A stretch of 64,000 bases of DNA. It comes from Clostridia bacterium (lineage in GTDB: Bacteria > Bacillota > Clostridia > Christensenellales > Aristaeellaceae). Under the pieces are notes generated by a model. That model saw only the letters and a list, made by a program, of their open reading frames with translations. It ran no database searches and was not told the origin of the DNA. The position numbers and the translations under genes were made by a program. This document shows, piece after piece, positions 9,888-32,559 of the stretch. Location: contig JAFRBK010000026.1 of the NCBI GenBank assembly GCA_017404985.1, positions 28,944-92,943 of the forward strand. Direction: 5' to 3'. Each line of letters starts with the position of its first letter. Position 1 is the first letter of the stretch.

Positions 9888-9927
9888 GGTTGCACTTATT
9901 GATACGCTGCAAAAAGCGGGATGGCAG
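9888..9927 (-). promoter_or_regulatory. Conserved bipartite motif upstream of LysM gene A
   Basis: Minus strand CTGCCA, 14 bases, GCGTATCAA; the downstream half ends 71 nt before the start codon. The same motif with the same spacing precedes the other two double-glycine genes. It starts 30 bp after the stop of the upstream HD-GYP/GGDEF gene, so it would let the small gene be expressed independently. A small CCGG/CCGG hairpin follows. Confidence 0.7.
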
Positions 9928-9957
9928 TAAAATGGAAAAAAACGTCAAAAATTTTTT

Positions 9958-12213
9958 TCAGGCGGTTTCACCGGCGGGGTCTGCCATGGACCAGGTGGGC
10001 GTGAACTCACTGCCGCCGTTCATTTTATAATACCCCTTGATGATTCTGTCTACGGCAATCCGCGCTCCCTCTGAATCCGTTCCCAGAAGGATGACCAGGA
10101 ACTGCTGCCGGCTGTAACGGGTCAGGACGTCCACATTCCGGATGGCCTGCCGGATGGACTGCTCCATACAGAACATGGACTTTTCCAGGGCTTCCAGCTG
10201 CGGCCCGTCCCCGGTGGCGCTTTCCAGCGTGACCATCAACAGCAGGAACGGCTGCCCGAAACGCTTTTCCAGATTGGTAAAGAATTCATACATCTTCGCA
10301 AACTGCCTGTATTCCACATCCATAGCACCCTGGTAGTTTCCGCTGTCCCGGATGCCCTGGACGAGCCTGTTTACATCCACCAGCTCGTTTCCGAAGTCGT
10401 CGCTTTCCTCCTGGAAGAAACAGCAATCGCTTTTCCCGTTCTGCTTCACATGGTACAGGGCTTTGTCCGCCTTATTATACACGGCGGTGTAGGAATCGGC
10501 GGGCGTGCACATGACCATGCCGGCCGAGAGGGAAGAGACGGAGATTTCCGGATCCTCGTTTTTCTTCTCGCTGAACCGGTTCAGGATGGCCCGGACGCGG
10601 GTCTCCGCATCTTCCCGGGAGACGTTTTTCAAATACAGAAGGAACTCATCCCCGCCGAGCCGGCAGCTGAGGCTGTCCTTACCGCAGGACAGGATCGTTT
10701 CGCCCATCAGGCGGAGCGCACGGTCCCCGGCTTCATGGCCGCAGGTATCGTTGATCCGCTTCAGGTTATCCATATCGAAGAATACAAAGCAGCCCGGGTT
10801 TTCCTTCATGCAACCGGCGATTGCAGACTCTCCGGCGGTCCGGCTCATCAGGCCCGTGACAACATCCACCTGGCCCGCTGAAGTCTGGGAGGCAAAGGCT
10901 TCCATCACCTCCTGCAGCAGCACGGAGGGGATCTCCTTTTCCTGCTCTTCATTTTCGGAACCGTCATTGCTGACAATGGCATCCAGGGCGCCTTTCTGCC
11001 ATAACGCCAGGAAGACATCGGTAAAGCGCGGATCAAACTGTTTTCCCCGCCCGGTCTGCAGCTCGCCCAGAATATGCTCCCTGGAGCAGGCTTTCCGGTA
11101 TACGCGGTTGGAGCTCATCGCATCGAAGGCATCCGCAATCGCGACGATCCGGGCTTCCTCCGAAATTTCCTCCCCTTTCAGGCCCCGCGGATATCCTTTG
11201 CCGTCATACCGTTCATGGTGGCTGCGGGCAACGGTTTCCGCCTTTTCGATGATGATTTTGTCCCTCAGGATATCCCCGCCCATGCTGGTATGGGATTTGA
11301 TAATTTCAAATTCGACGTCGGTCAGGCGGCGGGGTTTATTGAGAATGGAATCCGGGACGCCGATTTTTCCGATATCGTGCAGCAGGGCGGCGTAGCGGAG
11401 ATCATTCACCCGCTCCCGGCTCCAGCCCAGGGCTTCCGCAACGGCGACGGAATACTGGCTGACGCGGGTGGAATGGCCTTTGGTGTACGGATCCTTCGCG
11501 TCGATGGCGTTGGCCAGGGTCTGGATGGTCTGGAGGGACATCTGTTCGATCTTCCGGCTTCTTTCCTCCGCTACGGCGGTTTGCCGGGTTACTTCCTCAT
11601 TCAGCCGGTTGGTATGGTCGATTTCGAAAAGCGCTGTCCTGTGGTACTGTACCATGGCCAGGATCGTAAAGGCGGAAAGGGAAGCGTACATCATCGGGAA
11701 ACGCATGGAGAAAGAATCCATATAGTACTGCCGGATATTGCTGCCAAGGGGGGAATAAAACACCACAAAATAAAGAACGGAATAATATACGGAAAGCACA
11801 ATCCCATAACGGATTCCGACAAAATAACACATGCCGATGGGGAGCAGAATGGACCAGAGAATGCCGGTTCCTTCCGCATAGCCGGTCAGGGCATAATACG
11901 TAAAAACGATGCAGCAGAACAGCGTAGGAATCATGACCGCCGCATTCCTGTTTTTCCTGAAATGGCTCAGATACGCGCAGCCGGCTCCGGCCAGGACGGT
12001 TACGCAGGACATGACGATTTTCGCCGTATTGACCGGCGGATTCACCAGGTTCATGACGACGAGGGCGATTCCCAGGAACGCGGTGAAAACGCTGACCGAC
12101 GTCAGCGCGGTCAGGTTGGCTTTCAGGCGGTCGCCCGTATAAATCGACCGGCCCAGGGTTTTCCACAAAGCCCCGAAGGAGCGCTGCCCTTCCTGCTTCC
12201 TTTCCTGTTTCAT
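9958..12213 (-). CDS. Membrane HD-GYP + GGDEF dual c-di-GMP enzyme
   Basis: 751 residues. Six or so membrane helices occupy 35-190. An HD-GYP domain covers about 225-420 with H-D-I-G-K-I and H-H-E-R-Y-D-G-K-G-Y-P; a GGDEF domain covers about 450-600 with the intact R-L-G-G-D-E-F active site and F-F-D-M-D-N-L-K-R-I-N. Residues 640-745 look like a second, degenerate GGDEF fold in which the active-site loop reads Y-S-R-Q-Q-F. The protein could both make and degrade c-di-GMP, with the tail domain as sensor or dimeriser. It lies between the two LysM double-glycine genes on the same strand. The gene has its own promoter at 12265-12293. Confidence 0.9.
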   Translation of the reverse strand: MKQERKQEGQRSFGALWKTLGRSIYTGDRLKANLTALTSVSVFTAFLGIALVVMNLVNPPVNTAKIVMSCVTVLAGAGCAYLSHFRKNRNAAVMIPTLFCCIVFTYYALTGYAEGTGILWSILLPIGMCYFVGIRYGIVLSVYYSVLYFVVFYSPLGSNIRQYYMDSFSMRFPMMYASLSAFTILAMVQYHRTALFEIDHTNRLNEEVTRQTAVAEERSRKIEQMSLQTIQTLANAIDAKDPYTKGHSTRVSQYSVAVAEALGWSRERVNDLRYAALLHDIGKIGVPDSILNKPRRLTDVEFEIIKSHTSMGGDILRDKIIIEKAETVARSHHERYDGKGYPRGLKGEEISEEARIVAIADAFDAMSSNRVYRKACSREHILGELQTGRGKQFDPRFTDVFLALWQKGALDAIVSNDGSENEEQEKEIPSVLLQEVMEAFASQTSAGQVDVVTGLMSRTAGESAIAGCMKENPGCFVFFDMDNLKRINDTCGHEAGDRALRLMGETILSCGKDSLSCRLGGDEFLLYLKNVSREDAETRVRAILNRFSEKKNEDPEISVSSLSAGMVMCTPADSYTAVYNKADKALYHVKQNGKSDCCFFQEESDDFGNELVDVNRLVQGIRDSGNYQGAMDVEYRQFAKMYEFFTNLEKRFGQPFLLLMVTLESATGDGPQLEALEKSMFCMEQSIRQAIRNVDVLTRYSRQQFLVILLGTDSEGARIAVDRIIKGYYKMNGGSEFTPTWSMADPAGETA

Positions 12214-12264
12214 GCTGCTGTTCCTCAGTTGATTATTGATCTCACGTGTTTATTGATTAAATTT

Positions 12265-12293
12265 ATTTTATCAGTACCCGGGAGCAAATGCAA
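12265..12293 (-). promoter_or_regulatory. Promoter of the HD-GYP/GGDEF gene
   Basis: Minus strand TTGCAT, 17-bp spacer, TAAAAT, about 50 bp before the ATG at 12213. Confidence 0.55.
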
Positions 12294-12369
12294 GATGGTT
12301 TTCCAATCACAGGAAGGGCAGAAAGGGGGCGGGCAACGAACCTGAACGCCGCCGGAGCGGAGACGGACG

Positions 12370-12408
12370 AAAAAAAACGGTCCGGAGCCCAGCCAGGGGC
12401 TCCGGACC
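12370..12408 (-). terminator. Terminator after the second LysM double-glycine gene
   Basis: A 12-bp stem GGTCCGGAGCCC with GGGCTCCGGACC, then eight T on the minus strand. Confidence 0.85.
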
Positions 12409-12424
12409 TATCCATGAGGGAGGA

Positions 12425-12676
12425 TTATACCGGGATGTAGATATAATATCCGGCGCGAATGAAGTTCCGGTTGGAGATAATTCCAATGTTCACATTCATA
12501 ATCGCCTGCACGGTGGTACGATAGGTGCCGGCAATCCCGCTCAGGCATTCACCGGATTTGACTTTGTAGACGATGCATCCGGCCTTGTCGGGCAGGCGGG
12601 TCGGGGAACCGGCAGCGCCGCCGGAGACATTTTCCAGTTCTTCCTCATGCAGTTCGTTCAGTTTCATTTCATCCAT
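12425..12676 (-). CDS. Double-glycine leader peptide fused to a LysM domain (copy B)
   Basis: 83 residues. ATG 12676 has AAGGAGG about 8 bases upstream. Leader residues 1-20 carry Leu9, Glu13-Leu14, Val17 and Gly19-Gly20. The remaining 63 residues, the same length as in copy A, contain D-K-A-G ten residues after the GG, then a LysM domain (Y-K-V-K-S-G-E-C-L-S-G-I-A, ending G-Y-Y-I-Y-I-P). Cys residues at two positions in the mature part (about 34 and 44) could form a disulfide outside the cell; copy A has none. It follows the clostripain-like protease gene on the same strand but has its own upstream motif and its own terminator. Confidence 0.82.
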   Translation of the reverse strand: MDEMKLNELHEEELENVSGGAAGSPTRLPDKAGCIVYKVKSGECLSGIAGTYRTTVQAIMNVNIGIISNRNFIRAGYYIYIPV

Positions 12677-12732
12677 TATTGTTTCCTCCTTCCGCAGAGC
12701 GGTTTTTTTATCTTCAGGCACCGTTTTCGCTC

Positions 12733-12772
12733 GGTGTCATTTATTGATACGCAGCGCCGGGCAGGATGGCAG
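12733..12772 (-). promoter_or_regulatory. Conserved bipartite motif upstream of LysM gene B
   Basis: Minus strand CTGCCA, 14 bases, GCGTATCAA, ending 68 nt before the start. Between copies A and B most of 35 aligned positions are the same with no gap. A CACCG/CGGTG hairpin follows in the leader. Confidence 0.72.
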
Positions 12773-12821
12773 CAGTGATCGAAAACATTTTTTGAAATTA
12801 ACGTCTCCGGATCATGCCGGA

Positions 12822-15101
12822 TCAGAAGGCCAGGGGGACGGAATCGGTATAATGGATCCGGCCGGAGAGATCCGTCAGGCCGAAACAATACTGATAATTC
12901 CCGGCCGGGATGGTTTCCCAGCGGAGGGAAAGGCCTTCCGCCGGGACGGTGATGGCTTTTCCTTCATACTCCCGCTCGGTACCGTCGGAAGAAACCGCGG
13001 TGAAGAGCGGAGCGATTGACATCCCTGCCTCCAGCGGGATGAAACCGCGGATCGCGAAACCGGCTTCGTCATAGCCCTGGGTGGCGCCGAGGATGGCCGT
13101 GGTACCATCGGAAGACAGGCTGCCCAGCAGATACATCTTCAGGCCTCCGATGCGGGCAGGAATCACGAAGCGAACATTCCCGTTATCATCTCCGTAGAGG
13201 ATTTCAGCCCGAACCATCTGGCCGTCCAGCACCGGCCAGGAACCGTCGAACATTGAGAAAATAAGCCCTGTGGACCAGTCGATGGTGGTTTCGCCCAGGT
13301 TGCCGAGGCGGACGGTCTCCTCACCGTTCCGGATGGACAGGATGCCGCTCGCGGAAGAAAGATGGTCCAGGTCGTTTTTATTCAACTGAATGGAATAGAC
13401 CATCTGGGAGGTCAGTGTGGCAGAGGAGAAGTAATCGGAAGCGGTTTCCAGCACGCTTTCCGCGGGAACGGCTTCACTGACCCCGGCCTGGACATTCTGG
13501 TTTGGCTCGCCGGGCTGATAGTATTCGGCGCCGGGATTCAACAACCCGGCCCAGATGTTGTTCAGTGCAGCGGAGGCGGAAACCGGCGCAGGGGTGGCGG
13601 CAGCCGGCGGAGTGGATTCAGAGCCCAGCCCGGCCCAGATTCCGGAGACGGACGGCGTTGCAGAGGGACCGTTATTATATCCGGCCCAGATTCCGGAGGA
13701 GGTGGAGAGACCTTCCCAGATCGATCCGGAGGAGGTGTTCAGCCCGGCCCAAATATTGCCGCCGCAGGAATTATACGCGTCCTGAAAGGAACAGGTATCG
13801 CCATAGTATCCGTTCCAGATATCGCAGAAAGCGCCTGAACAGGAGCCGCCGTAGCCGCTTGTGCTGTAAAAATCAAAGGGGGTGTAGGAAGAAGCTGTCA
13901 TAGCATAGCCCGATGCGGCCGTCTGGTTGGCCATGGATACTGCCAGGGCGGCATAGGAACCGAGTTCGGCACTGTAATGGGACAGAATCTCGCTTTTATC
14001 ACTGGCAACCGTCGCGAAGGGCAGGAAGAAGGAAAGCCCGTGGGCGTGGGAAGCAATATCACCGGTTGTGCAGTTGTAGCATACCGCCTGCTGCGCCGCG
14101 TCCTTCAGGGCGGCGCATTCATTTGGAAGCAGGGCAGAGAACACCGTGCACATATCCTCCACATCCACCAGGTCAGAGGCATCGTAATCAGCGAATTCGC
14201 CGAAGGAAACCAGCTGCTGCCGGAGGCGGACTACGCCGGAAAAGTTACTGCTCAGTTCTGCGGACAGCGCTGCGCTGAAAGCGTTCGCAGCATCCATGAC
14301 CGCGGGCATTTTGCCTGTGTCGACGACGGTCATGGTGGAGGTGGCGGAAAAGTGCCCCCTGGAGTTTTCCTCCACATAGGTATCAGCGATGGATTTGGCG
14401 ATGGTTTCAGAGGAAAGGGCCGGGTTATCCACGATGGGCTTCATCCAGGCGTCATAATTGAGGCCGGTACCGTTCACCAGCTCCTGGCTTACCACAGCGT
14501 AATTCGCAATGCCGGCCAGGTCGGCGCACAGGTCCACGCAGTTCATCAGGCAGCAGTCAAACCCGATGAGATCAAACCGGGTGCCGTTCAGCCCGGACTG
14601 CAGGCCGGTTTTCAGCTCGGAGAGCGAGAGGCTGTCATCCTGAAAATTCTGATCGTTGCACAGGCCGAGCACCGGGCCGCCGCCGTGATCCCAGAAAACC
14701 ATCATATATCGTTTTGCGGGAGCGGCGGAGAGAGCAAAACGCAGGAAGTCAGCCAACGTGGACGCGTCACCCATATTGCGGCGGCCGACATCTTTCAGCA
14801 ACTCAGGGGCGTTAGCACCGAGACGGTAATACTGAACGCTGCGGGAAGAAATCCCGTACCGCTTCCATTCCGTGCAGCCGCCGGTCGCAATCAGCACCTT
14901 CACTGTGCCGGAAGCACCGATCCCGGAGGAAATCATCTCCGCAATATCTTCGGTGGCCTGACCGTCATCGCTTTCCAGGTCTGACCCGCAGATATAGGCC
15001 AGGATAGTCAGCTCATTTTCCGCGGCTTCGGCGGGAACCGGGGCTGCCGAAACGGAAAAAAACAGCACGGCGGCCAGAACAAGGCAAAGGGCTTTTTTCA
15101 C
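12822..15101 (-). CDS. Secreted clostripain-family (C11) cysteine peptidase with IWAGL repeats
   Basis: 759 residues from a GTG at 15101, chosen because AAGGAGGT lies 8 bases before it and a signal peptide begins exactly there (ending A-E-A-A-E near residue 27). The catalytic dyad fits C11 peptidases: His about 139 in F-W-D-H-G-G-G and Cys about 184 in G-F-D-C-C-L-M. Residues around 430-530 form a low-complexity Gly/Ser/Asn-rich segment with at least six Ile-Trp-x-Gly elements (I-W-A-G-L-N, I-W-E-G-L-S, I-W-A-G-Y, I-W-A-G-L-G and others). The C-terminal 200 residues look beta-rich. Acts outside the cell, cleaving after basic residues if like clostripain. A terminator separates it from the upstream gene. 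Confidence 0.85.
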   Translation of the reverse strand: MKKALCLVLAAVLFFSVSAAPVPAEAAENELTILAYICGSDLESDDGQATEDIAEMISSGIGASGTVKVLIATGGCTEWKRYGISSRSVQYYRLGANAPELLKDVGRRNMGDASTLADFLRFALSAAPAKRYMMVFWDHGGGPVLGLCNDQNFQDDSLSLSELKTGLQSGLNGTRFDLIGFDCCLMNCVDLCADLAGIANYAVVSQELVNGTGLNYDAWMKPIVDNPALSSETIAKSIADTYVEENSRGHFSATSTMTVVDTGKMPAVMDAANAFSAALSAELSSNFSGVVRLRQQLVSFGEFADYDASDLVDVEDMCTVFSALLPNECAALKDAAQQAVCYNCTTGDIASHAHGLSFFLPFATVASDKSEILSHYSAELGSYAALAVSMANQTAASGYAMTASSYTPFDFYSTSGYGGSCSGAFCDIWNGYYGDTCSFQDAYNSCGGNIWAGLNTSSGSIWEGLSTSSGIWAGYNNGPSATPSVSGIWAGLGSESTPPAAATPAPVSASAALNNIWAGLLNPGAEYYQPGEPNQNVQAGVSEAVPAESVLETASDYFSSATLTSQMVYSIQLNKNDLDHLSSASGILSIRNGEETVRLGNLGETTIDWSTGLIFSMFDGSWPVLDGQMVRAEILYGDDNGNVRFVIPARIGGLKMYLLGSLSSDGTTAILGATQGYDEAGFAIRGFIPLEAGMSIAPLFTAVSSDGTEREYEGKAITVPAEGLSLRWETIPAGNYQYCFGLTDLSGRIHYTDSVPLAF

Positions 15102-15119
15102 GGGCAGGACCTCCTTAAC

Positions 15120-15143
15120 GAAAAAAACCGCCGTTTCCGGCGG
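15120..15143 (-). terminator. Terminator after the secreted protein at 15157-15699
   Basis: CCGCCG-TTTC-CGGCGG (plus-strand reading), followed on the minus strand by seven or more T, directly upstream of the protease ribosome site. Confidence 0.75.
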
Positions 15144-15156
15144 GAAAATGCATGGT

Positions 15157-15699
15157 TCAGGTGACCGGGACAAAGGTGGCAAGAATGCTCTTGAACTGTT
15201 CGACCTGGTCCGCTGTCAGGGGATGGAACTTGTTGGCGTCCGCGGAATAGGCCATAAACATGATGTAGTATCCGTTGGTGAGAGTATCGGCATAGATATA
15301 CTCGGATTCACTGTCATCGCAGCGGATCAGCACGAAAGGAATGTTGCCGGCTTTAATTGTGCCGATATATTCCGGCTTGTCATCCGCATAGGTCTCCATG
15401 ACCTCCTGGGCATAGGCTTTCAGCTCTTCCTCGCTGGCGTTCCAGAGAGATTTATCCTTGGCATCTTCATCGTACAGGAGAAAGGATTCAATGACCAGGC
15501 CGGGCTCTTCCGGGGAAGCGACACAGCCGAGGTCTTCCATTCCGTCCTCCGTTTCCATAACCTCCGTTTCAATCTCCCAGCCCTGCGGCAGGGTCAGGGT
15601 AAAGTACTTGGTCGAAAAGGTGACGCCGTCTGCCAGGGCGCCGACAGCCATAGCCAGAACCAGCGCCAGGGCAAGCAGCAAACCGGTGATTCGTTTCAT
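15157..15699 (-). CDS. Small secreted protein, PsbP/LpqN-like fold suspected
   Basis: 180 residues. The signal peptide ends A-L-A-D near residue 24. The mature part opens with Y-F-T-L-T-L-P-Q-G-W-E-I-E, the pattern of PsbP-like or lipoprotein-LpqN-like domains that begin with a beta strand and Pro-x-Gly-Trp turn. No catalytic motif is visible. It precedes the clostripain gene on the same strand but a terminator separates them. RBS AGGGAGG precedes ATG 15699. Function unknown. Confidence 0.65.
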   Translation of the reverse strand: MKRITGLLLALALVLAMAVGALADGVTFSTKYFTLTLPQGWEIETEVMETEDGMEDLGCVASPEEPGLVIESFLLYDEDAKDKSLWNASEEELKAYAQEVMETYADDKPEYIGTIKAGNIPFVLIRCDDSESEYIYADTLTNGYYIMFMAYSADANKFHPLTADQVEQFKSILATFVPVT

Positions 15700-15797
15700 C
15701 TGAAAATCCTCCCTGTTTCATAGAATCAAGTTGCCACAACGAGCATTATATCACCGGATGGGAAAAAAAACGAGAGGTTTTTTTGGTGCGTTTTCGG

Positions 15798-15826
15798 TTG
15801 TCCGGAAGGGGAAAAGCGGATATAAT
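15798..15826 (+). promoter_or_regulatory. Promoter of the lipoprotein gene at 15903
   Basis: TTGTCC, 17-bp spacer, TATAAT. Confidence 0.65.
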
Positions 15827-15902
15827 ACTAATACTCAAAGAAACCTGAGGTGAACGGAATAAAAACGCTCTGTGCAGCGGAAAACACCGGAGGATGATTG
15901 AT

Positions 15903-16598
15903 ATGAAACGCTGGATGGCCCTGTTCACTGTCCTGATGCTGCTGGCGGCCTGCATTCCCGGCCTGGCGGAAGCACCGGAGGAGACGGTTCCGGAGGGAAA
16001 ACAGCTGATGACGCTGACGTTGCCGGATACGGAGACGATGCGGGATCCCGGATGGCAGCTGCTGGCCCATCAGCTGAACGGGAATTCCATCAGTTACCTG
16101 TCCCTGATTTCTGAAACGCTGGTTCGCTTCGCGGTATTCGGCGGAACCGATGAAGCAATCGCCCATGCCCGGGAAGACATTCTGGAGTTTCTGCAGCTGG
16201 CCGGCATGGAGAAGGCGGCAGAAGAAATTCAAAAAACGGATTCTGACAGGGAAGACCGGATTATCCTCTTTTCATCCGTGCTGCAGGCGCTGACATCAGA
16301 CCAGGCAACCTTATCTGTTTCTCCGGACCGGTCTTTTTCAGCGATTCAGGACCAGCGGCCGACGATTTTCCTGCTGATGAACCACGATCCGGAAACGGGG
16401 CTTTTACGGGGGTTGGCCCTGCTGGCGGACGGTGAGTGGGTGGATATTCTGCCTCTGTCCCAGACGGATGAAATCTGGCGTTATCCGGACCAGATTCTGA
16501 AGATTCTTTCCGGCCTTTCGCCGCTGGTCAATCCGGCGAATTACCGCACAGAGCGGCTGGAGCTTCCGCAGGCCGGGCTGGAGGCCATTACTTTTTGA
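15903..16598 (+). CDS. Putative lipoprotein of unknown function
   Basis: 231 residues from ATG 15903, which sits better than 15894 relative to the GGAGG at 15887-15891. The N-terminus M-K-R-W plus hydrophobic run ends in L-L-A-A-C, a good lipobox (Cys about 17), so the protein is probably lipid-anchored; a signal peptidase I site (G-L-A-E) a few residues later is an alternative. The rest has no recognised domain. It is followed after 18 bases by ybaK, so the two may form an operon. Confidence 0.65.
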   Translation: MKRWMALFTVLMLLAACIPGLAEAPEETVPEGKQLMTLTLPDTETMRDPGWQLLAHQLNGNSISYLSLISETLVRFAVFGGTDEAIAHAREDILEFLQLAGMEKAAEEIQKTDSDREDRIILFSSVLQALTSDQATLSVSPDRSFSAIQDQRPTIFLLMNHDPETGLLRGLALLADGEWVDILPLSQTDEIWRYPDQILKILSGLSPLVNPANYRTERLELPQAGLEAITF

Positions 16599-16616
16599 GA
16601 AACGGGTGAAAAACGG

Positions 16617-17090
16617 ATGAAAGCGGCGGAGAAAACCAACGTGATGCGGGTGCTGGACAGCAAAAAGATCCCATACACCGCCCATTTCTACGAAGCAGAT
16701 CCAACCCTGACGGGCGCACAGATTGCAGCGCTGCTGGGGGAACCGGCGGAGCATGTTTTCAAGACGCTGGTAACCCAGGGCAAGAGCAACCAGTATTATG
16801 TTTTTGTGATTCCGGTGGAGGCGGAGCTGGACCTGAAAAAAGCAGCGAAAGCCGCAGGGGAGAAGGCGGTAGCCATGATTAAACAGAAGGAACTGCTGCC
16901 GCTGACGGGATATGTGCACGGCGGGTGCTCACCCATCGGGATGAAGAAAGCTTTTCCGACCTGGATTCATGAGAGCGCGGCGGAGGCCGACATCATCTGT
17001 GTCAGTGCCGGCAGGGTCGGCGCACAGATTGAACTGAAAACAGACGATCTGTGCAGGGCGGCTGCCTGCAGGCTGGCGGATCTGGTCTGA
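16617..17090 (+). CDS. ybaK: Cys-tRNA(Pro)/Cys-tRNA(Cys) deacylase YbaK/EbsC
   Basis: 157 residues, normal for YbaK. It hydrolyses mischarged Cys-tRNA(Pro) in the cytoplasm. The family's conserved Lys sits in H-V-F-K-T-L-V (about residue 46), and the G-Y-V-H-G-G-C-S-P-I-G-M-K-K loop near residues 98-111 is characteristic. The C-terminal G-x-x-x-x-Q-I-E-L segment is also present. It overlaps no neighbour; a hairpin 25 bases downstream mainly serves the convergent gene. Confidence 0.92.
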   Translation: MKAAEKTNVMRVLDSKKIPYTAHFYEADPTLTGAQIAALLGEPAEHVFKTLVTQGKSNQYYVFVIPVEAELDLKKAAKAAGEKAVAMIKQKELLPLTGYVHGGCSPIGMKKAFPTWIHESAAEADIICVSAGRVGAQIELKTDDLCRAAACRLADLV

Positions 17091-17106
17091 AACGAAAAAA
17101 ACGCGT

Positions 17107-17139
17107 AAAAAAACAGCTGCTGCGGAAAAGCGCAGCAGC
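17107..17139 (-). terminator. Terminator of the surface-anchored protein gene
   Basis: 9-bp stem GCTGCTGCG/CGCAGCAGC, with a run of seven T on the minus strand. It lies between convergent genes and may act both ways. Confidence 0.8.
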
Positions 17140-17172
17140 ACAGGAAACACGGCGACGCATTCACAGCGCCTG

Positions 17173-18132: not shown

Positions 18133-18235
18133 GGCATAATGCCCTTTCATCTTCAGTCGGTTTCGTGGGCCGGAACAGGGTTCTGCCCCACAGTTTGAAA
18201 CAGTTCCAATGCGAAATCGTTAACAAACCATTACA

Positions 18236-18264
18236 ATTATATCAAAATACAGTGGGAATTTCAA
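18236..18264 (-). promoter_or_regulatory. Promoter of the surface-anchored protein gene
   Basis: Minus strand TTGAAA, 17-bp spacer, TATAAT, leaving a leader of about 95 nt. Confidence 0.75.
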
Positions 18265-18477
18265 GGGAAAACCACAAGATCATGGGAATTCCGCTGCACA
18301 ATGTCGGCCAAAACCCGACGCACCATCTTTTCCGGAAGCCTCCTGAAACTCCCGGCTAATGATATATACGAATGAGATTACCCAAAAGCATGCACTTTTT
18401 ATTTTTTTTTGACACTTTTTTGCTGCCACACCGGGGAGGCCGGCTGCGGATGCGTCTTTCCGGCTGCCGCCGGAATG
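18265..18477. other. Non-coding stretch without a gene
   Basis: Between the promoter at 18236-18264 and the GH51 terminator there is no open frame with a ribosome site. It holds an A/T run (18398-18420) and a few short inverted repeats. Nothing else is recognised. Confidence 0.5.
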
Positions 18478-18509
18478 AAAAAAGCCGGGGCGGCAGAAGC
18501 CGCTCCGGC
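18478..18509 (-). terminator. Terminator of the GH51 gene
   Basis: 11-bp GC-rich stem (GCCGGAGCGGC/GCCGCCCCGGC, one G-U) and six T on the minus strand. Confidence 0.85.
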
Positions 18510-18523
18510 CCATTGGGAAGGCA

Positions 18524-20128: not shown

Positions 20129-20293
20129 TGGCAAGGTTCCTCCTCTGTAATCAACAGGATGGTCTCTGCGCGCGATATAAAATATTGTAATCCGGAAGAA
20201 AAGCCGGAGCAACACTTTTATCTGTCTTTTTTCTGAGAAGAATGATATAATTCGGTAATTCCCGGTAAAGCCGCTGTTGATGGAGTGAATGGA

Positions 20294-21632: not shown

Positions 21633-21666
21633 CTTGCGTCCTCCTGTGCGGTTCATTCATTGGATG

Positions 21667-21700: not shown

Positions 21701-21728
21701 GATTCTTCGACCGTTATCCTGGCTGCTG

Positions 21729-22101: not shown

Positions 22102-22107
22102 TATAAT
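22102..22107 (+). promoter_or_regulatory. -10 element of the SBP-EAL gene
   Basis: TATAAT, with a poor -35 (TTTTGG at 17 bp). Transcription would start near 22114, after the first possible in-frame start codons, supporting the GTG start at 22183. Confidence 0.5.
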
Positions 22108-22182
22108 ACAAAAAAATTGATCACTTGCATGAAATACGATACAGCTGATTCCGAAAAAGCCGATGTTCCGGAGGCGAATAAA

Positions 22183-25137: not shown

Positions 25138-25151
25138 AAGGATGGTTGGGG

Positions 25152-25838
25152 ATGAAAACGCGATGCCTGCTGCTGCTCCTGTGCCTGATAGCGGCTGTTG
25201 TTCCTGCGCTGGCTGAACAGCCGGGGATTGCCGCCGCACCGGGACAGACGGTGATAGCCTTTCAGGAATATACCGGAATGGAATATGCAACATGGTTCCT
25301 GACCGGAAAGAAGGAGTATACGGTCCACGCGATGATGGTATCGAAAGACACCTCGTTTCATAACGAACTGGAAGTCACGGATTATACGGTGAAAAATGAC
25401 GGGGAAACAGTCATTCTGAAAGGCTGCCTGGGCGAAATGTGGGCTTCCAAATTGTCGAAGGTGGCTGATACTTATACAAAAGCAGACGGTACCGCGGTCA
25501 GCAGAGAGGATTTTGTAATAAAGGATCGGTTTATTGACCTCAAAACGAAGGCGGAACCGGAAGAGTATTATGCAATGCATGTTCCGCTGACGTTTTCCGT
25601 GACGGTGGAAACCGCATGGGGTGACGTCCTGCATACCAATCTGCCGAACGCGCCGCACGGCAGGGGAGACTATCTGGTATGCCGCAGGGGCGGAGACGGG
25701 GAGCCGGATCTTTCCGACGTTTGGATTCTCAACGGCGTTTTGTTTCCCGAATATTATGATATGGAAGACACTGATGGCCTGCCGGCAGAAAGCGCGGCAG
25801 GCCATCAGTATGCAATGGTTTTATTTCTGTGTTTGTGA
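25152..25838 (+). CDS. Secreted protein of unknown function
   Basis: About 228 residues. ATG 25152 is preferred to the TTG at 25146. The signal peptide ends V-P-A-L-A-E near residue 22. The body is rich in beta-type sequence with no recognised domain. The last 20 or so residues are encoded across a 12-bp inverted repeat at 25774-25807 and overlap the convergent gene by 18 bp, so the natural stop may have been lost and the tail gained by extension. It is 15 bases after the EAL gene and could share its transcript. Confidence 0.6.
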   Translation: MKTRCLLLLLCLIAAVVPALAEQPGIAAAPGQTVIAFQEYTGMEYATWFLTGKKEYTVHAMMVSKDTSFHNELEVTDYTVKNDGETVILKGCLGEMWASKLSKVADTYTKADGTAVSREDFVIKDRFIDLKTKAEPEEYYAMHVPLTFSVTVETAWGDVLHTNLPNAPHGRGDYLVCRRGGDGEPDLSDVWILNGVLFPEYYDMEDTDGLPAESAAGHQYAMVLFLCL

Positions 25839-27575
25839 ATGCTTCCATTCCGCTTCCATCAGTTTCTCTGCTTCCTCAGGAGACATGGGCTTTCCCCACA
25901 GGAAGCCCTGAATATAATCGCAGCCAATCTCCCGCAGGTCTTCCAGCTGGTCTGTTTCCTCGACGCCCTCAGCCACCACGCGGAAGTTCATCACATGGCC
26001 GATGGCGATAATGGCGGCGACATACTGCTTTGAGGCTTCGCCGGAGTGCATCTTGATGATAAAGGACTGATCCACCTTCAGCACATCCACCGGGAAGGAA
26101 TTCAGATAGCTCAGGGAGGAATAACCGGTGCCGAAATCATCAATCGCGATATGCACGCCAAGGGCTGTAATCTGGTGAATGCAGTCAATCGCCTTCTCCA
26201 CGGAATCAATCATGATGGATTCGGTGATCTCAATTTCCAGCTGTTCCGGCGGGAGCCCGCTCCGCTCCAGCGCGGTTTTGACCTCCTCCACGAAACCGTT
26301 CCGCAAAAGATGCCGTACGGAAGCGTTCACGCTGAGGACGACGCCGGAGTGGTATTTTTTCACCATTCTGCCGATGAATTCGGTGGCGCCGAAGAGTACT
26401 TCATGGTCAATCCGCTCCACCAGGCCGCTTTTCTCTGCCACGGGAATGAAATCCCCCGGAGGAATAAGGTTGCCGTTTTCATCCGTCATTCGGGCCAGCG
26501 CCTCAAATCCGCGAAGCCTGTGGTCCATGTCGAACTGGGGCTGCAGCTTGAAGAACAGGCGGCCTTTGTCCAGCGCTTCCCGGATCCTGCGGGCGGTTTC
26601 GATGGCCTGGCCGCTGTCGATCATGTCCTCCGTGAAGCGGCAGATATAACCGGTATGGTCCGTGGTTTTTGCCCGGATCATGGCGGCATAGGCATTGTCA
26701 AAAAGGGTTTCGCTGTCTTTGGCATCCGCCGGGAAGGATGCGTAACCGAAACTGGCGGAGAGGACGAAATCGCTGTCATCGATGACGATCTTTTCCTTCA
26801 GGGCTTCGGCATAGCATTCCACGCTCCGGTGAAGCATCTCCTCGGAATGATAATCCCGGATAATCACGGCGAACTCGTTTCCGTTCTGGCAGGCCACAAT
26901 ATCCCGGGTGCCTGTTTTGCCGCTTTCGGCAAGCTTCTGCCAGCGGTCGGCAAGCTGGACAAGCGCTTTGTCCCCTGCCTGCTGCCCCATGGCATTGTTG
27001 ATATTCTTGAAATAATTAAGGTTGATGAGGGCGATGGCAAAAGGCTCGTTTTTCCGGATCATGCCGTCCATGAGCTCCGTGACGGCGAAGCGGTTCGGCA
27101 GGCCGGTCAGCCGGTCCGTGAGGGCCTGATCCCGCATTTTGGCCTGAAAACTGGCGGAACGTTCGATGAAGGCCCGGAGAATGCTGACCGTGACGATCAT
27201 CAGAATATTGGTGAAGAAACCGGGAATGACCGAGTAGTTGCCCTGGATCATCCTAATCAGCAGCGACGGGAACTGAACCAGAAGCGCAACGATGGCTGCG
27301 ATGAAACCCGGCTTTTTATACAGAACCACCAGCATGACAATACAGAGATTATCGATTGAGGAAAATGCTCCGGTAAGCGTCCTGTGCATTACGCGCTGGT
27401 TGTTGATGATAATAAAGCCTTCCGACGCGGAAGTGAGATTCACAAAAACATTTGCGGCAATGTACACTGCGACAAGCGCAAAGAAACCCCATGCAGGAGC
27501 GGATTTGACAGTGAATTCATCCAGCATCTTTTCAACTCTGGTACGCCGGCTGAAGCGCTTTTTCCATTTTTCCAC
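25821..27575 (-). CDS. Membrane GGDEF(degenerate)-EAL protein, likely c-di-GMP phosphodiesterase
   Basis: 584 residues. About four to five membrane helices occupy residues 28-140, a GGDEF-like domain about 150-310 has its loop changed to Q-N-G-N-E-F, and an EAL domain covers about 325-575. EAL keeps F-E-A-L-A-R, N-A-S, E-I-T-E-S, D-D-F-G-T-G-Y-S-S and A-E-G-V-E, so phosphodiesterase activity is likely; the altered GGDEF loop could bind GTP as a regulator. It overlaps the convergent secreted-protein gene by 18 bp. Confidence 0.9.
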   Translation of the reverse strand: MEKWKKRFSRRTRVEKMLDEFTVKSAPAWGFFALVAVYIAANVFVNLTSASEGFIIINNQRVMHRTLTGAFSSIDNLCIVMLVVLYKKPGFIAAIVALLVQFPSLLIRMIQGNYSVIPGFFTNILMIVTVSILRAFIERSASFQAKMRDQALTDRLTGLPNRFAVTELMDGMIRKNEPFAIALINLNYFKNINNAMGQQAGDKALVQLADRWQKLAESGKTGTRDIVACQNGNEFAVIIRDYHSEEMLHRSVECYAEALKEKIVIDDSDFVLSASFGYASFPADAKDSETLFDNAYAAMIRAKTTDHTGYICRFTEDMIDSGQAIETARRIREALDKGRLFFKLQPQFDMDHRLRGFEALARMTDENGNLIPPGDFIPVAEKSGLVERIDHEVLFGATEFIGRMVKKYHSGVVLSVNASVRHLLRNGFVEEVKTALERSGLPPEQLEIEITESIMIDSVEKAIDCIHQITALGVHIAIDDFGTGYSSLSYLNSFPVDVLKVDQSFIIKMHSGEASKQYVAAIIAIGHVMNFRVVAEGVEETDQLEDLREIGCDYIQGFLWGKPMSPEEAEKLMEAEWKHSQTQK

Positions 27576-27684
27576 AGTGAAATAGTCTCCTTCTCCAAAG
27601 CCTGTGGCTACGAAAGACCCTGTTTCAGTATATCATGCGGCGGAACAAGTGTAAACCGCCAAAAAGAAAAGCACCGGAAAGAAA

Positions 27685-28116
27685 TCAGCGAAAGACGAAT
27701 ATTTGCGCCAGGAGGCTCAGCACAGCCGAAGCGGCGATCCAGATCCATCCGACGCGGACCATCCAGGAGCCAGACTCATGATTTTCCTCCTCCAGATGAA
27801 AGCGGGAAGGATTGTTTCTGTCATAGAACAGCGGAACGATGTCGCCCGGGCGCAGCTTCTGCTCCCAGTGGTACACGCGGGACTGAACCCGGTATTGCTT
27901 GCCTTCTGCGGAAAAGTCCAGCACCGGGTGATACCCGTATTTCCAGGAATACCGGCCGGTCGAATGGGCTTTTTTGACGTAATGCACAAACACGGCGTCG
28001 GCCTGCTCCAGTTCTGTTCTCTGGCGGCGGTTGTATCGCAGCATGGATATCAGGCCATAGGCTAGAAAAGCCCAGCCTGCCAGGGAAAAGGCGAGAAAAC
28101 ACCACAGCATTTTCAT
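27685..28116 (-). CDS. DUF3592-type membrane protein
   Basis: 143 residues with a hydrophobic helix at each end (about 5-27 and 117-140) around an extracytoplasmic beta domain. The centre (Y-H-P-V-L-D-F-S-A-E-G-K-Q-Y, then G-D-I-V-P-L-F-Y-D-R-N-N-P) is the DUF3592 pattern. Function unknown. It follows the secreted-protein gene by 16 bases on the same strand, so the pair is probably cotranscribed. Confidence 0.75.
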   Translation of the reverse strand: MKMLWCFLAFSLAGWAFLAYGLISMLRYNRRQRTELEQADAVFVHYVKKAHSTGRYSWKYGYHPVLDFSAEGKQYRVQSRVYHWEQKLRPGDIVPLFYDRNNPSRFHLEEENHESGSWMVRVGWIWIAASAVLSLLAQIFVFR

Positions 28117-28132
28117 CTTCAGGCACCGTCCG

Positions 28133-28882
28133 TCAATCCATCGGGCCGGCCGGATAATCCGAGTGGCTCACTTTGACCAGCAGCCCGGCCTCAAACCATG
28201 CGTCCGTATTCCAGGGGGTATACCATGCTTCCGAGATATCCGCCAGGAAGGCTTCCGGCCCGCCTTCATTGCCGGCAGCATAATCCTCGAAGATGAATTT
28301 TTCGGGCAGCGGCAGCCGGATCGCGATCTCCTCCAGATACGTGCAGGGCGACCAGTCATTCTGCACAGCTCTGTACTCATTTTCCGAAACCGGCGCGAAG
28401 CCGATGTAGCCGTCAACAGTTTCCGATGGAATCAGCTCATAGTGCGAGAATTCAAAGCTCCCCGGCGCATCTTTCAGGTCGCCGTCCACCACGCGCTCAC
28501 AGGCATCCAGCAGTTCCCGGTTCTTTTCCAGGTCCTGAACCAGCGTGCAGGAGAGGTCGGCTTCCCCGTCTCCGTCTGAATCAAAATAACCGCAGGTCAG
28601 CATTACGGCGACAGTGTACGCTGTCCCGTTCACAGCCACGGTATCCCAGGGCTTCAGGTTCTCAATCTGCGCCCCGTCATACCGGTCTTCCGAATAAACA
28701 GAAAGCCTGAACCAGCCCTCCTCCAGATGCCCGGCGTCCTCAACGCCGATGCAGTATTTCCCTTCCAGGGGCCCGGAACTGTCCCGGGCCGCCGGCTTTG
28801 GCAGCACGGATACCGGTCCGTCCGCGCAGGCGGCGCCGGCCAGCAGCAACACTGAGAGAAGCAAAACAACGATTTTTTTCAT
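28133..28882 (-). CDS. Secreted protein of unknown function, paralogue of 8789-9403
   Basis: About 249 residues from the second Met of an M-G-M-K-K start. Signal peptide ends G-A-A-C-A-D; the Cys near residue 20 (A-G-A-A-C) could also be a lipobox. The part around residues 40-95 matches by eye the secreted protein at 8789-9403 (L-E-G-x-Y/F, Y-x-E-x-R-Y, L-K-x-x-D, V-x-G-x-x-x-T-V). A D-S-D-G-D-G-E-A-D segment near residue 103 looks like a Ca-binding loop. First gene of a pair with the DUF3592 gene; TATAAT on the minus strand at 28911-28916. Confidence 0.65.
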   Translation of the reverse strand: MKKIVVLLLSVLLLAGAACADGPVSVLPKPAARDSSGPLEGKYCIGVEDAGHLEEGWFRLSVYSEDRYDGAQIENLKPWDTVAVNGTAYTVAVMLTCGYFDSDGDGEADLSCTLVQDLEKNRELLDACERVVDGDLKDAPGSFEFSHYELIPSETVDGYIGFAPVSENEYRAVQNDWSPCTYLEEIAIRLPLPEKFIFEDYAAGNEGGPEAFLADISEAWYTPWNTDAWFEAGLLVKVSHSDYPAGPMD

Positions 28883-28953
28883 GCCCATGTCCTCCGTTTA
28901 TGCGCTATTATACCACAAAGAATCCATGGCTGAAAAGGAACGTTCAGGATGAA

Positions 28954-28982
28954 ATGACAAGACGAATCAATGATGGTATAAT
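28954..28982 (+). promoter_or_regulatory. Promoter of the MATE exporter gene
   Basis: ATGACA, 17-bp spacer, TATAAT. Confidence 0.65.
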
Positions 28983-29036
28983 CCCTCATGGCTTCCGGGA
29001 GGAAAAAAGGCGGGAAACGCGGAAGGGGGAAACACG

Positions 29037-30428
29037 GTGAGAGCCAAAGGCAGGTTTGACTGGGCGATGCTGGGCACTGTGTTTGCCCTGGCCTGGCCCA
29101 CCATGCTCGAGCAGCTGACCCAGACCGCCGTGCAGTATATCGACACGGCCATGGTGGGGTCCCTGGGCACTGAAGCCACCGCTGCCGTCGGCGCAACCGG
29201 CACCGTGAACTGGATGATTGGCAGCATCGTTTCCGCGGCCGGCGTCGGTTTCCTGGCCTATATTGCCCGGAATATCGGGGCGGGGGAACCGGAGGCGGCG
29301 AAAAAAGCCAGCGCCCAGGCCTGTATGATTACCCTGGTGCTTGGTACTGTGCTGACGGCGGTCACCGTGTCGCTTTCCGGCCGGATTCCGGCCTGGATGC
29401 AGGCGGATCCTGCCATCCGGGATCTGGCATCCCGGTATTTCCGGATTTTGTATTGGCCGATGCTGTTCCGCACCGCCTCCATTCTGCTGGCCACTGTGCT
29501 CCGTGCCGCCGGGGATACACGCACGCCCATGCGCGTAGGCCTGGTGGTAAATGGGCTGAACATTCTGCTGAACTTTTTCCTGATCTATCCGGCCCGACAG
29601 GTGAACCTGTTTGGACTGGCCGTATCCCTGCCCGGCGCAGGCCTCGGAGTGGAGGGGGCAGCCCTGGCCAGTGCGCTCTGCTTTGTTTATGGCGGTGCTG
29701 CCATGTTCCGGGCGGTATGGAAGCATCCGGCGGTTTCCCCAAAGGGGTATTCGCTCCGGCCGAACCCGGTTATTCTGCGGCCCTGTTTCCGGGTGGCGCT
29801 GCCCAACCTGGCGCAGCGCTTTGGGACCTGTTTCGGATATGTGGTGTTCGCTTCAATGATCAACGGCCTGGGCGGGACTTCCACCGCCGCCCATACCATT
29901 GCGAATACGGTGGAAAGCCTCTTTTATATTCCCGGCTACGGCATGCAGACGGCCGCGGCCACTCTGAGCGGAAACGCCTGGGGAGCGAAGGACCACGATC
30001 GGCTGAAGCGCCTGGGCAGCACGGTGCTTCCTCTGGAAGTCTGCCTGATGGTTTTCTCCGGCGCCGCGCTTTTCCTGACCGCGGAACCGCTGGTTCGCCT
30101 GTTTACCCGGGATGAGAACGTAGTTCGCCTGGGGACGACGGTGCTTCGTATGGTGGCGGTTTCCGAGCCTTTCTACGGTGTACCCATCGTTGTGGAAGGG
30201 CTTATGCAGGGCGTCGGAAAAACGACGGCTCCCTTTGTTTATAACATTATCGGCATGTGGGCCGTGCGGATTGCCGGCACCTTTATCTGTATCCGTGTGC
30301 TGCATCTGGGGCTCGAGGCGGCCTGGGGCTGCATGATCGGCCATAACCTGCTGCTCTTTTTCCTGTTTACCTGTCACTACCTGACCGGGCGGTGGGACCC
30401 GTTTCAGAAAAAAAGCAGGGCGGCGTGA
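29037..30428 (+). CDS. MATE-family multidrug/cation antiporter
   Basis: 463 residues with twelve hydrophobic helices in two homologous halves. The N-terminal W-P-T-M-L-E-Q-L and D-T-A-M-V-G-S-L-G segments and the mid-protein A-A-H-T-I-A-N element are standard for MATE proteins. It exports organic cations or drugs using Na+ or H+. The GTG start is supported by GGGGG 7 bases upstream. The substrate cannot be inferred from the neighbours; GH127 follows after 70 bases with its own promoter. Confidence 0.93.
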   Translation: MRAKGRFDWAMLGTVFALAWPTMLEQLTQTAVQYIDTAMVGSLGTEATAAVGATGTVNWMIGSIVSAAGVGFLAYIARNIGAGEPEAAKKASAQACMITLVLGTVLTAVTVSLSGRIPAWMQADPAIRDLASRYFRILYWPMLFRTASILLATVLRAAGDTRTPMRVGLVVNGLNILLNFFLIYPARQVNLFGLAVSLPGAGLGVEGAALASALCFVYGGAAMFRAVWKHPAVSPKGYSLRPNPVILRPCFRVALPNLAQRFGTCFGYVVFASMINGLGGTSTAAHTIANTVESLFYIPGYGMQTAAATLSGNAWGAKDHDRLKRLGSTVLPLEVCLMVFSGAALFLTAEPLVRLFTRDENVVRLGTTVLRMVAVSEPFYGVPIVVEGLMQGVGKTTAPFVYNIIGMWAVRIAGTFICIRVLHLGLEAAWGCMIGHNLLLFFLFTCHYLTGRWDPFQKKSRAA

Positions 30429-30434
30429 TTCCGC

Positions 30435-30463
30435 TTGTGCCATGCCGGCGGTTCTGATACAAT
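30435..30463 (+). promoter_or_regulatory. Promoter of the GH127 gene
   Basis: TTGTGC, 17-bp spacer, TACAAT. Confidence 0.55.
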
Positions 30464-30499
30464 GGAAAAAAGAAAAAATCGACAGGGGAGGCGGAGCGG

Positions 30500-32512
30500 A
30501 TGATCAGCCCGAAGGATGTCCGTATCACCGACGAATTCTGGCAGACGGAGCAGGAGCTTGTGCGCACGGAAGTGATTCCGTATCAGTGGGAGGCGTTGAA
30601 CGACCGCGTTCCGGGGGCAGCTCCCAGCTTTGCGATCCATAATTTCCGGGCGGCGCGGTCGCTGCGGGAGCGGTCCCATGCGCCTGGTTTCCGGGCGCCG
30701 GTATTCGGAAATGTACCCTTTGAGGTGCTGCCGGAGGACCCTGAACATCCGGATCCGGAGCGGTTTTACGGCTTCGTGTTCCAGGATACGGATCTGTATA
30801 AATGGATCGAGGCGGTGGCCTATTCCCTGATGCGCCACCCGGACGCCGAACTGCAGGCGACGGCGGACGGGGCGATCCGCCTGATTGCGGAAGCCCAGGC
30901 GGAGGATGGGTATCTGGATACCTATTATATTCTGAACGGGCGGGACAGAACCTTTACCAACCTGCGGGACCATCACGAGCTGTACTGCTTCGGCCATCTG
31001 ACGGAAGCCGCCGTGGCATATCACCAGGCGACGGGAAACGGGATGCTGCTGGAGGTGGCGGAACGGTTCGCGGGGTATATTGCGGAGAAAATCGGCCCGG
31101 AAGAGGGAAAGAAGCACGGCTACCCCGGCCACGAAATCGCGGAAATGGCGCTGGTCCGCCTGTATGAGGAAACCGGGAAGGATGAATACCTGCGGCTGAG
31201 CCGGTATTTTATTGACGAGCGCGGGAAGGAGCCGAACTGGTTCGCGCTGGAGGGAAACCCGCCGCCGGAGTATGAAAAGCCGGAAATCCCTTATTCCTAC
31301 TATCAGGCACACCGCCCCGTGCGGGAACAGGATGAGGCGAAAGGCCACGCGGTGCGGGCCATGTATCTGTACAGCGGAATGGCGGATATCGCCCGGCTGA
31401 CGGGGGATGAGTCGCTGAAGGAAGCCTGCCGCGCCCTGTTCCGGAGCACGACCCGCGAAAAGATGTATATTACCGGCGGCGTGGGCTCCACCCATATCGG
31501 TGAAGCATTTACCTTTCCCTTTGACCTGCCGAACGACCTTGCATATACGGAATCCTGCGCTGCCATCGGGCTTTGCTTCTTCGCACGCAGAATGCTGGAG
31601 CTGGAGGCAAGGGCGGAATACGCCGACGTGATGGAGCGGGCTCTGTATAACAATGTGCTGAGCGGGATTGCCCTGGACGGAAAGAGCTTTTTCTATGTCA
31701 ATCCGCTGGAGGTCTGGCCGGAGGCGACTCACCGGGATGCCCGCAAGCTTCATGTCAAGCCGGTGCGCCAGAAATGGTTCGGCTGCGCCTGCTGCCCGCC
31801 GAATATCGCGAGGCTGCTGGGCTCGCTCGGCTCCTATGCCTATACGGAGCGGGACAACACGCTGTATGTCCACCTGTATATGGGATCGGAAGTCACCCTG
31901 CACAGGGAGAGCGGAGAGGTTCGCGTGCGGGTTGCGGTGGACCGGGAGGATCCGGAACGGTGGACGGTTCGGATCCGGATATACGCGGCGGCAAAGGATT
32001 TCACCCTGGCGCTGCGGATTCCCGGGTGGAGCCGGGAGTGTGTTCTCCGCGGCGCGGAAGGCGCCGAAAACAGGGAGGAAAACGGATACATTTACCTGCG
32101 GAAAGATTGGAAAGACGGGGAGGAAATCACGCTGGAACTGCCCTGCCCGGTGCGCTTCCTTCGCGCGGACAGCCGCGTCAGGGAAGACAGCGGGAAGATT
32201 GCTGTGATGCACGGGCCCTTCGTTTACTGCCTGGAGGAGTGGGATAACGGGAAAAACCTGAACCTTGTCTCCATCCGGCGCGGGACCAGGCCGGAGGAGG
32301 TTGCTTTTGAAAAAGCGGAGGTTGCCGGGCGGCCGGTAACCGTGCTGCGGGTGCCTGGGCAGCGGGAGGAGGAAGTGACGGACCGGGGCCTGTATTACGA
32401 GGCGGAATGCGCCGGAACGGAGGCAGGGCCGGTGACCCTGGCCATGATTCCGTATTACGCCTGGGCGAACCGGGGGGAGAATGAAATGCAGGTATGGACC
32501 AGAATTTTTTAA
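30500..32512 (+). CDS. Beta-L-arabinofuranosidase, glycoside hydrolase family 127
   Basis: 670 residues, close to the family norm. The zinc/cysteine centre known from HypBA1 is visible: Glu351-x-Cys353 in T-E-S-C and the Cys431-Cys432 pair in G-C-A-C-C-P-P-N; the first Cys of that pair is the expected nucleophile. K-H-G-Y-P-G-H-E and D-F-A-M/I-type helices fit the (alpha/alpha)6 barrel, and the last 180 residues are beta-rich. It has no signal peptide, so it removes beta-L-arabinofuranose from imported oligosaccharides, complementing the GH51 enzyme. GAGGCGG-type site before ATG 30500. Confidence 0.93.
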   Translation: MISPKDVRITDEFWQTEQELVRTEVIPYQWEALNDRVPGAAPSFAIHNFRAARSLRERSHAPGFRAPVFGNVPFEVLPEDPEHPDPERFYGFVFQDTDLYKWIEAVAYSLMRHPDAELQATADGAIRLIAEAQAEDGYLDTYYILNGRDRTFTNLRDHHELYCFGHLTEAAVAYHQATGNGMLLEVAERFAGYIAEKIGPEEGKKHGYPGHEIAEMALVRLYEETGKDEYLRLSRYFIDERGKEPNWFALEGNPPPEYEKPEIPYSYYQAHRPVREQDEAKGHAVRAMYLYSGMADIARLTGDESLKEACRALFRSTTREKMYITGGVGSTHIGEAFTFPFDLPNDLAYTESCAAIGLCFFARRMLELEARAEYADVMERALYNNVLSGIALDGKSFFYVNPLEVWPEATHRDARKLHVKPVRQKWFGCACCPPNIARLLGSLGSYAYTERDNTLYVHLYMGSEVTLHRESGEVRVRVAVDREDPERWTVRIRIYAAAKDFTLALRIPGWSRECVLRGAEGAENREENGYIYLRKDWKDGEEITLELPCPVRFLRADSRVREDSGKIAVMHGPFVYCLEEWDNGKNLNLVSIRRGTRPEEVAFEKAEVAGRPVTVLRVPGQREEEVTDRGLYYEAECAGTEAGPVTLAMIPYYAWANRGENEMQVWTRIF

Positions 32513-32519
32513 ATTTCTG

Positions 32520-32559
32520 CTGCCACATTTCCAAACCATGCGTATCAACATATGACAGC
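32520..32559 (+). promoter_or_regulatory. Conserved bipartite motif upstream of the SH3b double-glycine gene
   Basis: CTGCCA, 14 bases, GCGTATCAA, then ATGACA, at the same internal spacing as upstream of LysM genes A and B; the second half ends 75 nt before the start. It begins 7 bp after the GH127 stop. Confidence 0.72.

Follow-up and report, generated by a model that had tools for sequence, protein, structure and literature searches.

Three genes for double-glycine (GG) leader peptides lie in a 64-kb stretch of DNA from a Clostridia bacterium (this whole stretch is hereafter termed the window), and each is preceded by the same bipartite sequence, raising the questions of whether that sequence is a promoter, what would read it, and which other genes it would serve. 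The answer favored here, with a probability of roughly 0.9, is that the motif is the promoter of one ECF sigma factor, that the regulon so defined is one of exported proteins, and that a small protein termed SP is the probable anti-sigma regulator of that factor. A pattern scan of the 64 kb for CTGCCA-N14-GCGTATCAA returned exactly three perfect copies, which are exact matches with identical spacing ahead of the three GG genes, as the first-pass annotation had described. That annotation had found no other copy by eye, and this agrees with the scan, in which up to 3 mismatches were allowed and no further copy was detected elsewhere in the 64 kb. A total of 100 dinucleotide shuffles of the window gave zero exact matches. 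A chance origin of the motif is ruled out by these shuffles and by the low counts obtained with reversed-pattern controls (see below). Several details required correction. The 40-nt ranges first assigned to the motif include it but extend 11 nt downstream of it, and the distance to the start codon, initially put at 68-75 nt, is 70, 67, and 74 nt when measured from the final base of the motif to the start codons, which lie at 9828, 12676, and 32623. Further, the proposed spacer of 14 nt is present at all three window sites but is not fixed, as N15 also exists.

Table 1. Positions of putative promoters, genes, and hairpins in the window, and of the sigma gene and its neighbor on contig C48 of the same genome.
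Feature	Position	Strand	Basis
Putative ECF-type promoter 1, -35 CTGCCA, -10 GCGTATCAA, N14	9899..9927	-	exact match, shuffles, 45-site position profile
Putative ECF-type promoter 2, N14	12744..12772	-	exact match, shuffles
Putative ECF-type promoter 3, N14	32520..32548	+	exact match, shuffles
Gene 1, GG-leader peptide with LysM domain, MTDEIMNNATELNEEELEEVSGG...	9568..9828	-	LysM E 9e-5
Gene 2, GG-leader peptide with LysM domain, MDEMKLNELHEEELENVSGG...	12425..12676	-	LysM E 2e-9
Gene 3, GG-leader peptide with SH3_3-like domain, MSEKNEMFELNADQLEQVIGG...	32623..32919	+	SH3_3 E 1.2e-4
Terminator-like hairpin after gene 2, 12 pairs, T run	12379..12408	-	
Terminator-like hairpin after gene 3, 12 pairs, short T run	32935..32962	+	
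ECF sigma gene	C48:37581-38057	-	A1 profile, E 5e-80
SP gene directly before the sigma gene	C48:38060-38242		

The domain assignments in Table 1 should be read with two qualifications, namely that the SH3_3 match of gene 3 scores 22.7 bits, below the Pfam curated cut-off of 27, and that the LysM query for gene 2 had one additional residue ahead of the Met. For gene 1, the Bacteriocin_IIc leader matched with an E-value of 0.0012, which is under the curated cut-off, and bacteriocin_sig scored 15.8 bits against a cut-off of 15.7. Genes 2 and 3 look like single-gene units because terminator-like hairpins come after them. The leaders of the window genes show the features of C39 substrates (L at -12, an acidic residue at -8, a hydrophobic residue at -7, and Gly-Gly), with Q at -8 in the third leader, and the full code fits 12 of 18 GG leaders in the genus. 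For C39 (AMS/PCAT) exporters such as ComA and LahT150, this code is published as Leu(-12)-X3-Glu(-8)-Leu(-7), with Gly-Gly, Gly-Ala, or Gly-Ser at the cleavage site that follows (PMC6363468), and the window genes share it before Gly-Gly.

The window lies on contig C6 of an assembly (G000) of 2.98 Mb that is 85% complete. In this genome, the pattern CTGCCAN{14,15}SCGTATNNA has 10 matches and its reversed control has 0, indicating a non-random distribution. Seven of the 10 lie upstream of GG-leader genes (those of the window and four more at C14:467, C17:1162, C42:133731, and C47:77242), an enrichment that had been proposed as a check on the motif and that is also seen across the genus. The remaining matches precede SP, a small orphan protein (C48:30923), a Sec-exported protein (C29:95169), and, at a distance of 226 nt, an aquaporin-like gene (C30:3168), the last of which is doubtful. 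Two weaker sites were located near C47:81286, where it was read by eye ahead of a further GG gene, and near C48:35202, ahead of a Sec-exported gene; three GG genes of the same genome (L312, L350, and L351) had no promoter site. Across 45 genomes of the genus, the pattern occurs 218 times versus 15 times when reversed (from a summed table in which the 218 was rechecked). In a sample of 300 genomes of the family, the 77 that encode SP hold 410 motifs (control, 29), a mean of 5.3, and the 223 that lack SP hold 138 (control, 82), a mean of 0.62. Motif number thus tracks the presence of SP (p 3.6e-22 overall and p 1.5e-13 outside the genus of the window), with exceptions in both directions: 12 of the 77 SP-encoding genomes are motif-free and 10 of the 223 others have three or more.

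Profiles of 45 and 129 sites show conservation of a purine, of CTGCCA(T/C)CC, then of T-G-CGTATnAA, and of a T-G located 5-6 nt further downstream. The T and G of this last element, at 5-6 nt past TATnAA, are present in 113 and 123 of the 129 sites, respectively, and lie outside the search pattern. They form part of a conserved purine-T-G at 4-6 nt past TATnAA, which is suggestive of a transcription start a few nt past the -10 element; the purine, which directly precedes the conserved TG, is the likely start. Starts in the window are predicted near 9895 (-), 12740 (-), and 32552 (+). Folding of the initial 45 nt is more favorable than that of shuffled sequences (mean z of -1.18 for 129 sites versus -0.37 for 128 upstream stretches), and transcripts may therefore begin with a hairpin. 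The motif could also be viewed as an ordinary sigma-A promoter of the form CTGCCA-N17-TATCAA, with four of six positions per hexamer and, when GCG is counted as spacer, the ideal distance of 17 nt. However, CG precedes TAT in 45 of 45 sites and C1 and C4 of the -35 element are nearly invariant (these letters are also in the search pattern), and in SP-negative genomes of the family, all of which should have sigma-A, motif counts are close to those of the control. Moreover, simple sigma-70-type scans of positions 9500-13200 and 32200-33200 were empty, in keeping with the first impression that no sigma-A promoter is apparent at these genes. The conserved CG, the empty scans, and the near-control counts led us to reject the sigma-A reading, which we consider scarcely credible.

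A candidate for the factor that reads the motif as an ECF-type promoter emerged from genus relatives, where the motif precedes a two-gene operon with SP as the first gene and an ECF sigma gene as the second. A profile of eight sequences detected the sigma gene in 29 of the 45 genus genomes, including that of the window; SP (~65 aa) occurs in 30 of the 45 and adjoins the sigma gene in all 29, the two genes being divergent in G026. Three genus members were scanned for the architecture expected of ECF factors (sigma-70 regions 2 and 4 only, ~160-185 aa) and agree with it: Sigma70_r2, Sigma70_r4_2, and the sigma70-ECF superfamily matched above cut-off, and no region 1 or region 3 family was among the matches listed. 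The prediction that an ECF sigma gene with a self-copy of the motif would be found was borne out, as the promoter is present on 22 of 29 genus SP-sigma operons. This count was obtained with a two-block matrix that was trained on 45 non-sigma sites, picked by eye for plausible downstream gene starts (GG, Sec, or other), and tested on the 260 nt ahead of SP, with the threshold set at the 99.5% quantile of shuffled windows. With a fixed spacer, 11 of the 29 operons exceeded the threshold, and allowing N15 raised this to the 22 reported, many of these self-promoters using N15. It should be noted that the 29 operons represent 28 genomes (G029 has two), some of which are close relatives and hence not independent of each other, and that they include neither the divergent pair of G026 nor the weaker of two ECF matches in G018. 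Given self-promoters at this frequency, autoregulation of the sigma operon is predicted for most genomes examined. The sigma operon in the genome of the window has no recognizable promoter copy, and a second SP located 7 kb away carries one. At least six further SP copies outside SP-sigma operons, identified by comparing positions, have the motif just upstream; such a second copy is present in four genomes (G000, G008, G030, and G032) among those of the seven operons without a promoter. G024 and G026 have one too.

The motif might instead be the operator of a classical DNA-binding regulator, with ECF genes merely among its targets. Two-part motifs whose spacer hardly varies can serve as operators as well, but a variation of one nt in the spacer suits contacts with -35 and -10 elements, the two halves as read from the sequence are not inverted copies of each other, and the motif tracks the ECF-linked SP across 300 genomes; we regard an operator as very improbable. 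Nearly as improbable is that the promoter is read by another ECF sigma factor of the same genomes. Some genomes without SP carry motifs, and a loose first look yielded 4-43 candidates per genus genome, from which it follows that further sigma factors exist. Nevertheless, it is the SP-linked operon itself that bears the motif in the majority of cases (22 of 29), and it is the presence of SP that motif number follows. The SP-linked sigma factor is thus retained here as the presumed reader of the promoter.

The targets were evaluated by locating GG-leader genes with a leader profile alone, ignoring the motif. The 70 matches examined comprised 30 loci, one per genome, and 40 chosen roughly by E-value, skipping loci that had been fetched for the motif. 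Among GG genes in genomes that encode the ECF factor, the promoter is no more than 300 nt away for 45 of 60 (for 39 of 54 when the six profile seeds are excluded), compared to 8 of 246 background genes, three of those 8 being the sigma gene. In genus genomes without the ECF factor the promoter precedes 4 of 10 GG genes, several of these assemblies being incomplete. The N15 spacer occurs in 35 of 39 promoter-bearing GG genes of relatives. When a stricter first pattern was used with at most 1 mismatch, 86 distinct matches were recovered in the genus, which an automatic rule assigned to GG genes (18), Sec-like genes (29), and SP (9), leaving 30 in none of these classes. Since genus matches also precede Sec-like genes, SP, and others, the regulon is broader than wall-binding peptides. 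The initial characterization as a regulon of exported wall-binding peptides was too narrow, other GG peptides and many Sec-exported proteins being included.

Domains of the C39 type were found at 56 places in 35 of the 45 genus genomes. In 13 of the 29 genomes with the ECF factor, a C39 domain is located no more than 15 kb from the sigma gene, compared to 0.49 expected by random placement; in the genome of the window there is none on the contig of the sigma gene. The first-pass annotation had also expected the C39 exporter to be under the motif. This was not substantiated: although the exporter is genetically linked to the sigma gene, none of the 22 evaluable loci (of 30) carries the promoter in the ~300 nt before the exporter N-terminus. 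At three loci (L035, L039, and L074) a motif lies ~1-2.3 kb from a C39 exporter gene, directed away from it and with no clear gene behind it.

The distribution of SP extends beyond the genus. A scan of named genomes gave 174 relatives, and the best 80 of these derive from Clostridia, Clostridiales, Lachnospiraceae, Butyrivibrio, Blautia, Ruminococcus, Treponema, and others, many from ruminants. An ECF sigma gene is found within 800 nt and on the same strand in 67 of these 80 loci, and the promoter is on 31 of the 67 SP-ECF pairs, some of these pairs coming from genus genomes already counted above. Sigma precedes SP in 12 of the 67 pairs, mostly from Lachnospiraceae; these gave one marginal matrix match, and their promoter may differ. 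Three SP proteins showed no match to an anti-sigma family up to an E-value of 1 in Pfam or NCBIfam, comparison to the PDB gave only weak, chance-like matches (best E 0.22), and a structure model was helical with low confidence (pLDDT 70). The C-terminal half of SP follows the code of a C39 leader, with L at -12 in 72 of 73 aligned sequences, E or D at -8 in 71, L, M, A, or V at -7 in 71, and V, L, or I at -4 in 72. At the cleavage position, all 73 have Ala-Ala rather than the Gly-Gly, Gly-Ala, or Gly-Ser of C39 substrates; the exception is a homolog designated L269, which lies outside the 73. The 80 loci hold 88 SP matches, 13 of which the alignment does not represent because they are truncated or over-long, nearly duplicate another sequence, or are second copies; by eye these have Ala-Ala at about the same place, with L234 shifted by one residue and L269 having Gly-Gly. 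Scored singly against the leader HMM, SP sequences reached a median of 5.6 bits, far above shuffled SP (-2.8) and segments of real proteins (-4.4). This result was clearer than that of profile-profile comparison with GG leaders by hhalign, which was weak (36% probability over 13 columns).

These features admit two readings of SP. Instead of being an anti-sigma factor, it could itself pass through the C39 transporter as a cargo or pheromone peptide, for which the fit of its C-terminal half to the leader code and the L269 homolog both speak. The latter (L269:7915-8352, from 7992, in Lachnospiraceae bacterium AC3007) is longer than the aligned SP, has the same N-terminus followed by a genuine GG and a cargo that contains cysteine, and sits under a CTGCCA-N15-TCGTATAAA site; it may connect SP with conventional GG precursors. 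Against a cargo role are the Ala-Ala at the cleavage site in all aligned sequences, the poor conservation of tails past that site, and the position of SP close beside a sigma gene at 67 of the best 80 loci, and we consider such a role rather unlikely. Alternatively, SP may be an anti-sigma factor that mimics a leader and senses the occupancy of the exporter, a role that is possible because SP keeps the C39-leader code with Ala-Ala in place of Gly-Gly. This is the boldest model considered and is likewise put forward as rather unlikely.

The promoter family, the sigma-SP operon and its self-promoters, the targets, the linkage to the exporter, and the leader code of SP are all read from the sequences, and from them we infer promoter recognition by the sigma factor, the transcription start, binding of sigma by SP, and docking of SP on the exporter, which could operate together as follows. 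The sigma factor, encoded elsewhere in the genome directly after its partner gene SP, would form a holoenzyme recognizing ACTGCCAT, a 14-15 nt spacer after CTGCCA, and then (G/C)CGTATnAA, and transcription would begin at the purine ~7 nt past CGTAT. This would switch on Sec-exported proteins and the GG-leader peptides that are destined for ABC exporters with a C39 peptidase; many of these peptides carry LysM or SH3 domains. In most of the genomes examined the SP-sigma operon would be a target as well, amounting to positive autoregulation. As gene order would suggest, SP would hold the sigma factor, probably as a small soluble anti-sigma factor. In the leader-mimic version of the model, the C-terminal half of SP would dock on the C39 peptidase domain of the exporter, where Ala-Ala should resist cleavage. 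While the exporter is free it would retain SP, and the sigma factor would stay active; once jammed by GG-leader substrates it would let SP go, and SP would silence the sigma factor. Peptide synthesis would then be matched to export capacity, as an ABC-exporter counterpart of FlgM-FliA. In the FliA/FlgM system of flagella, an anti-sigma factor reports the state of an export machine; the likeness concerns a possible mode of action only, with a C39 ABC exporter replacing the flagellar export apparatus.

Among Clostridia, the alternative sigma factors TcdR, BotR, and UviA drive secreted products, in the case of UviA a bacteriocin, and the SP-linked sigma factor would be like them in belonging to Clostridia and in serving exported products. 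In its two-domain ECF sigma factor, bipartite promoter, self-promoter, and small neighboring gene, the system is like ECF sigma/anti-sigma pairs, among which soluble anti-sigma factors are a known kind (PMC8103513). Unlike those pairs, SP matches no Pfam or NCBIfam anti-sigma family and has no convincing relative of solved structure, its C-terminus is C39-leader-like, and the regulon is dominated by exported products. SP likewise differs from C39 leaders in combining their code with Ala-Ala and a position beside a sigma gene. Control of a GG peptide by ECF factors is already known from sublancin of Bacillus subtilis, a GG-leader peptide whose production involves sigma-M and sigma-X (PMC4336743). 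Sublancin is encoded by one phage-borne glycopeptide cluster with several regulators, whereas here one SP-linked sigma factor would act through a dedicated promoter on numerous GG and Sec genes at scattered sites. Similarly, MibX/MibW of microbisporicin are described as a pathway-specific ECF sigma and anti-sigma factor exerting feed-forward control on a secreted ribosomal peptide (PMC4973701); they belong to one actinomycete biosynthetic cluster, in contrast to the dispersed regulon in Clostridia. In the literature covered, whose scope excluded most subscription papers, neither an ECF sigma factor with double-glycine leaders or C39 nor an ECF partner with the leader code of an exporter was found described. 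Three look-alike promoters lead to a putative regulon that comprises a sigma factor and a family of partner proteins and whose sequence code can be tested. Most of what is known of the lineage concerned comes from gut genomes of uncultured bacteria. The motif offers a genome-wide means of finding exported GG peptides, and the SP family, which is also present in Lachnospiraceae and Treponema, suggests a possible coupling of peptide transcription to the peptide exporter.

Individual loci behind the motif add several minor observations. A stretch containing CTGCCATCCTGTGTAAAATAGCGCATGAA is common to L021, L027, L060, L088, and L091 (genomes G026, G033, G027, G042, and G043), and is perhaps a mobile element and a false match. 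At L013, L024, and L066, the motif precedes similar-looking genes whose products are seemingly cytosolic. Finally, the gene behind the motif at L065 encodes what we take to resemble a Nif11-type leader peptide; if it is of this type, the regulon gains another leader class.
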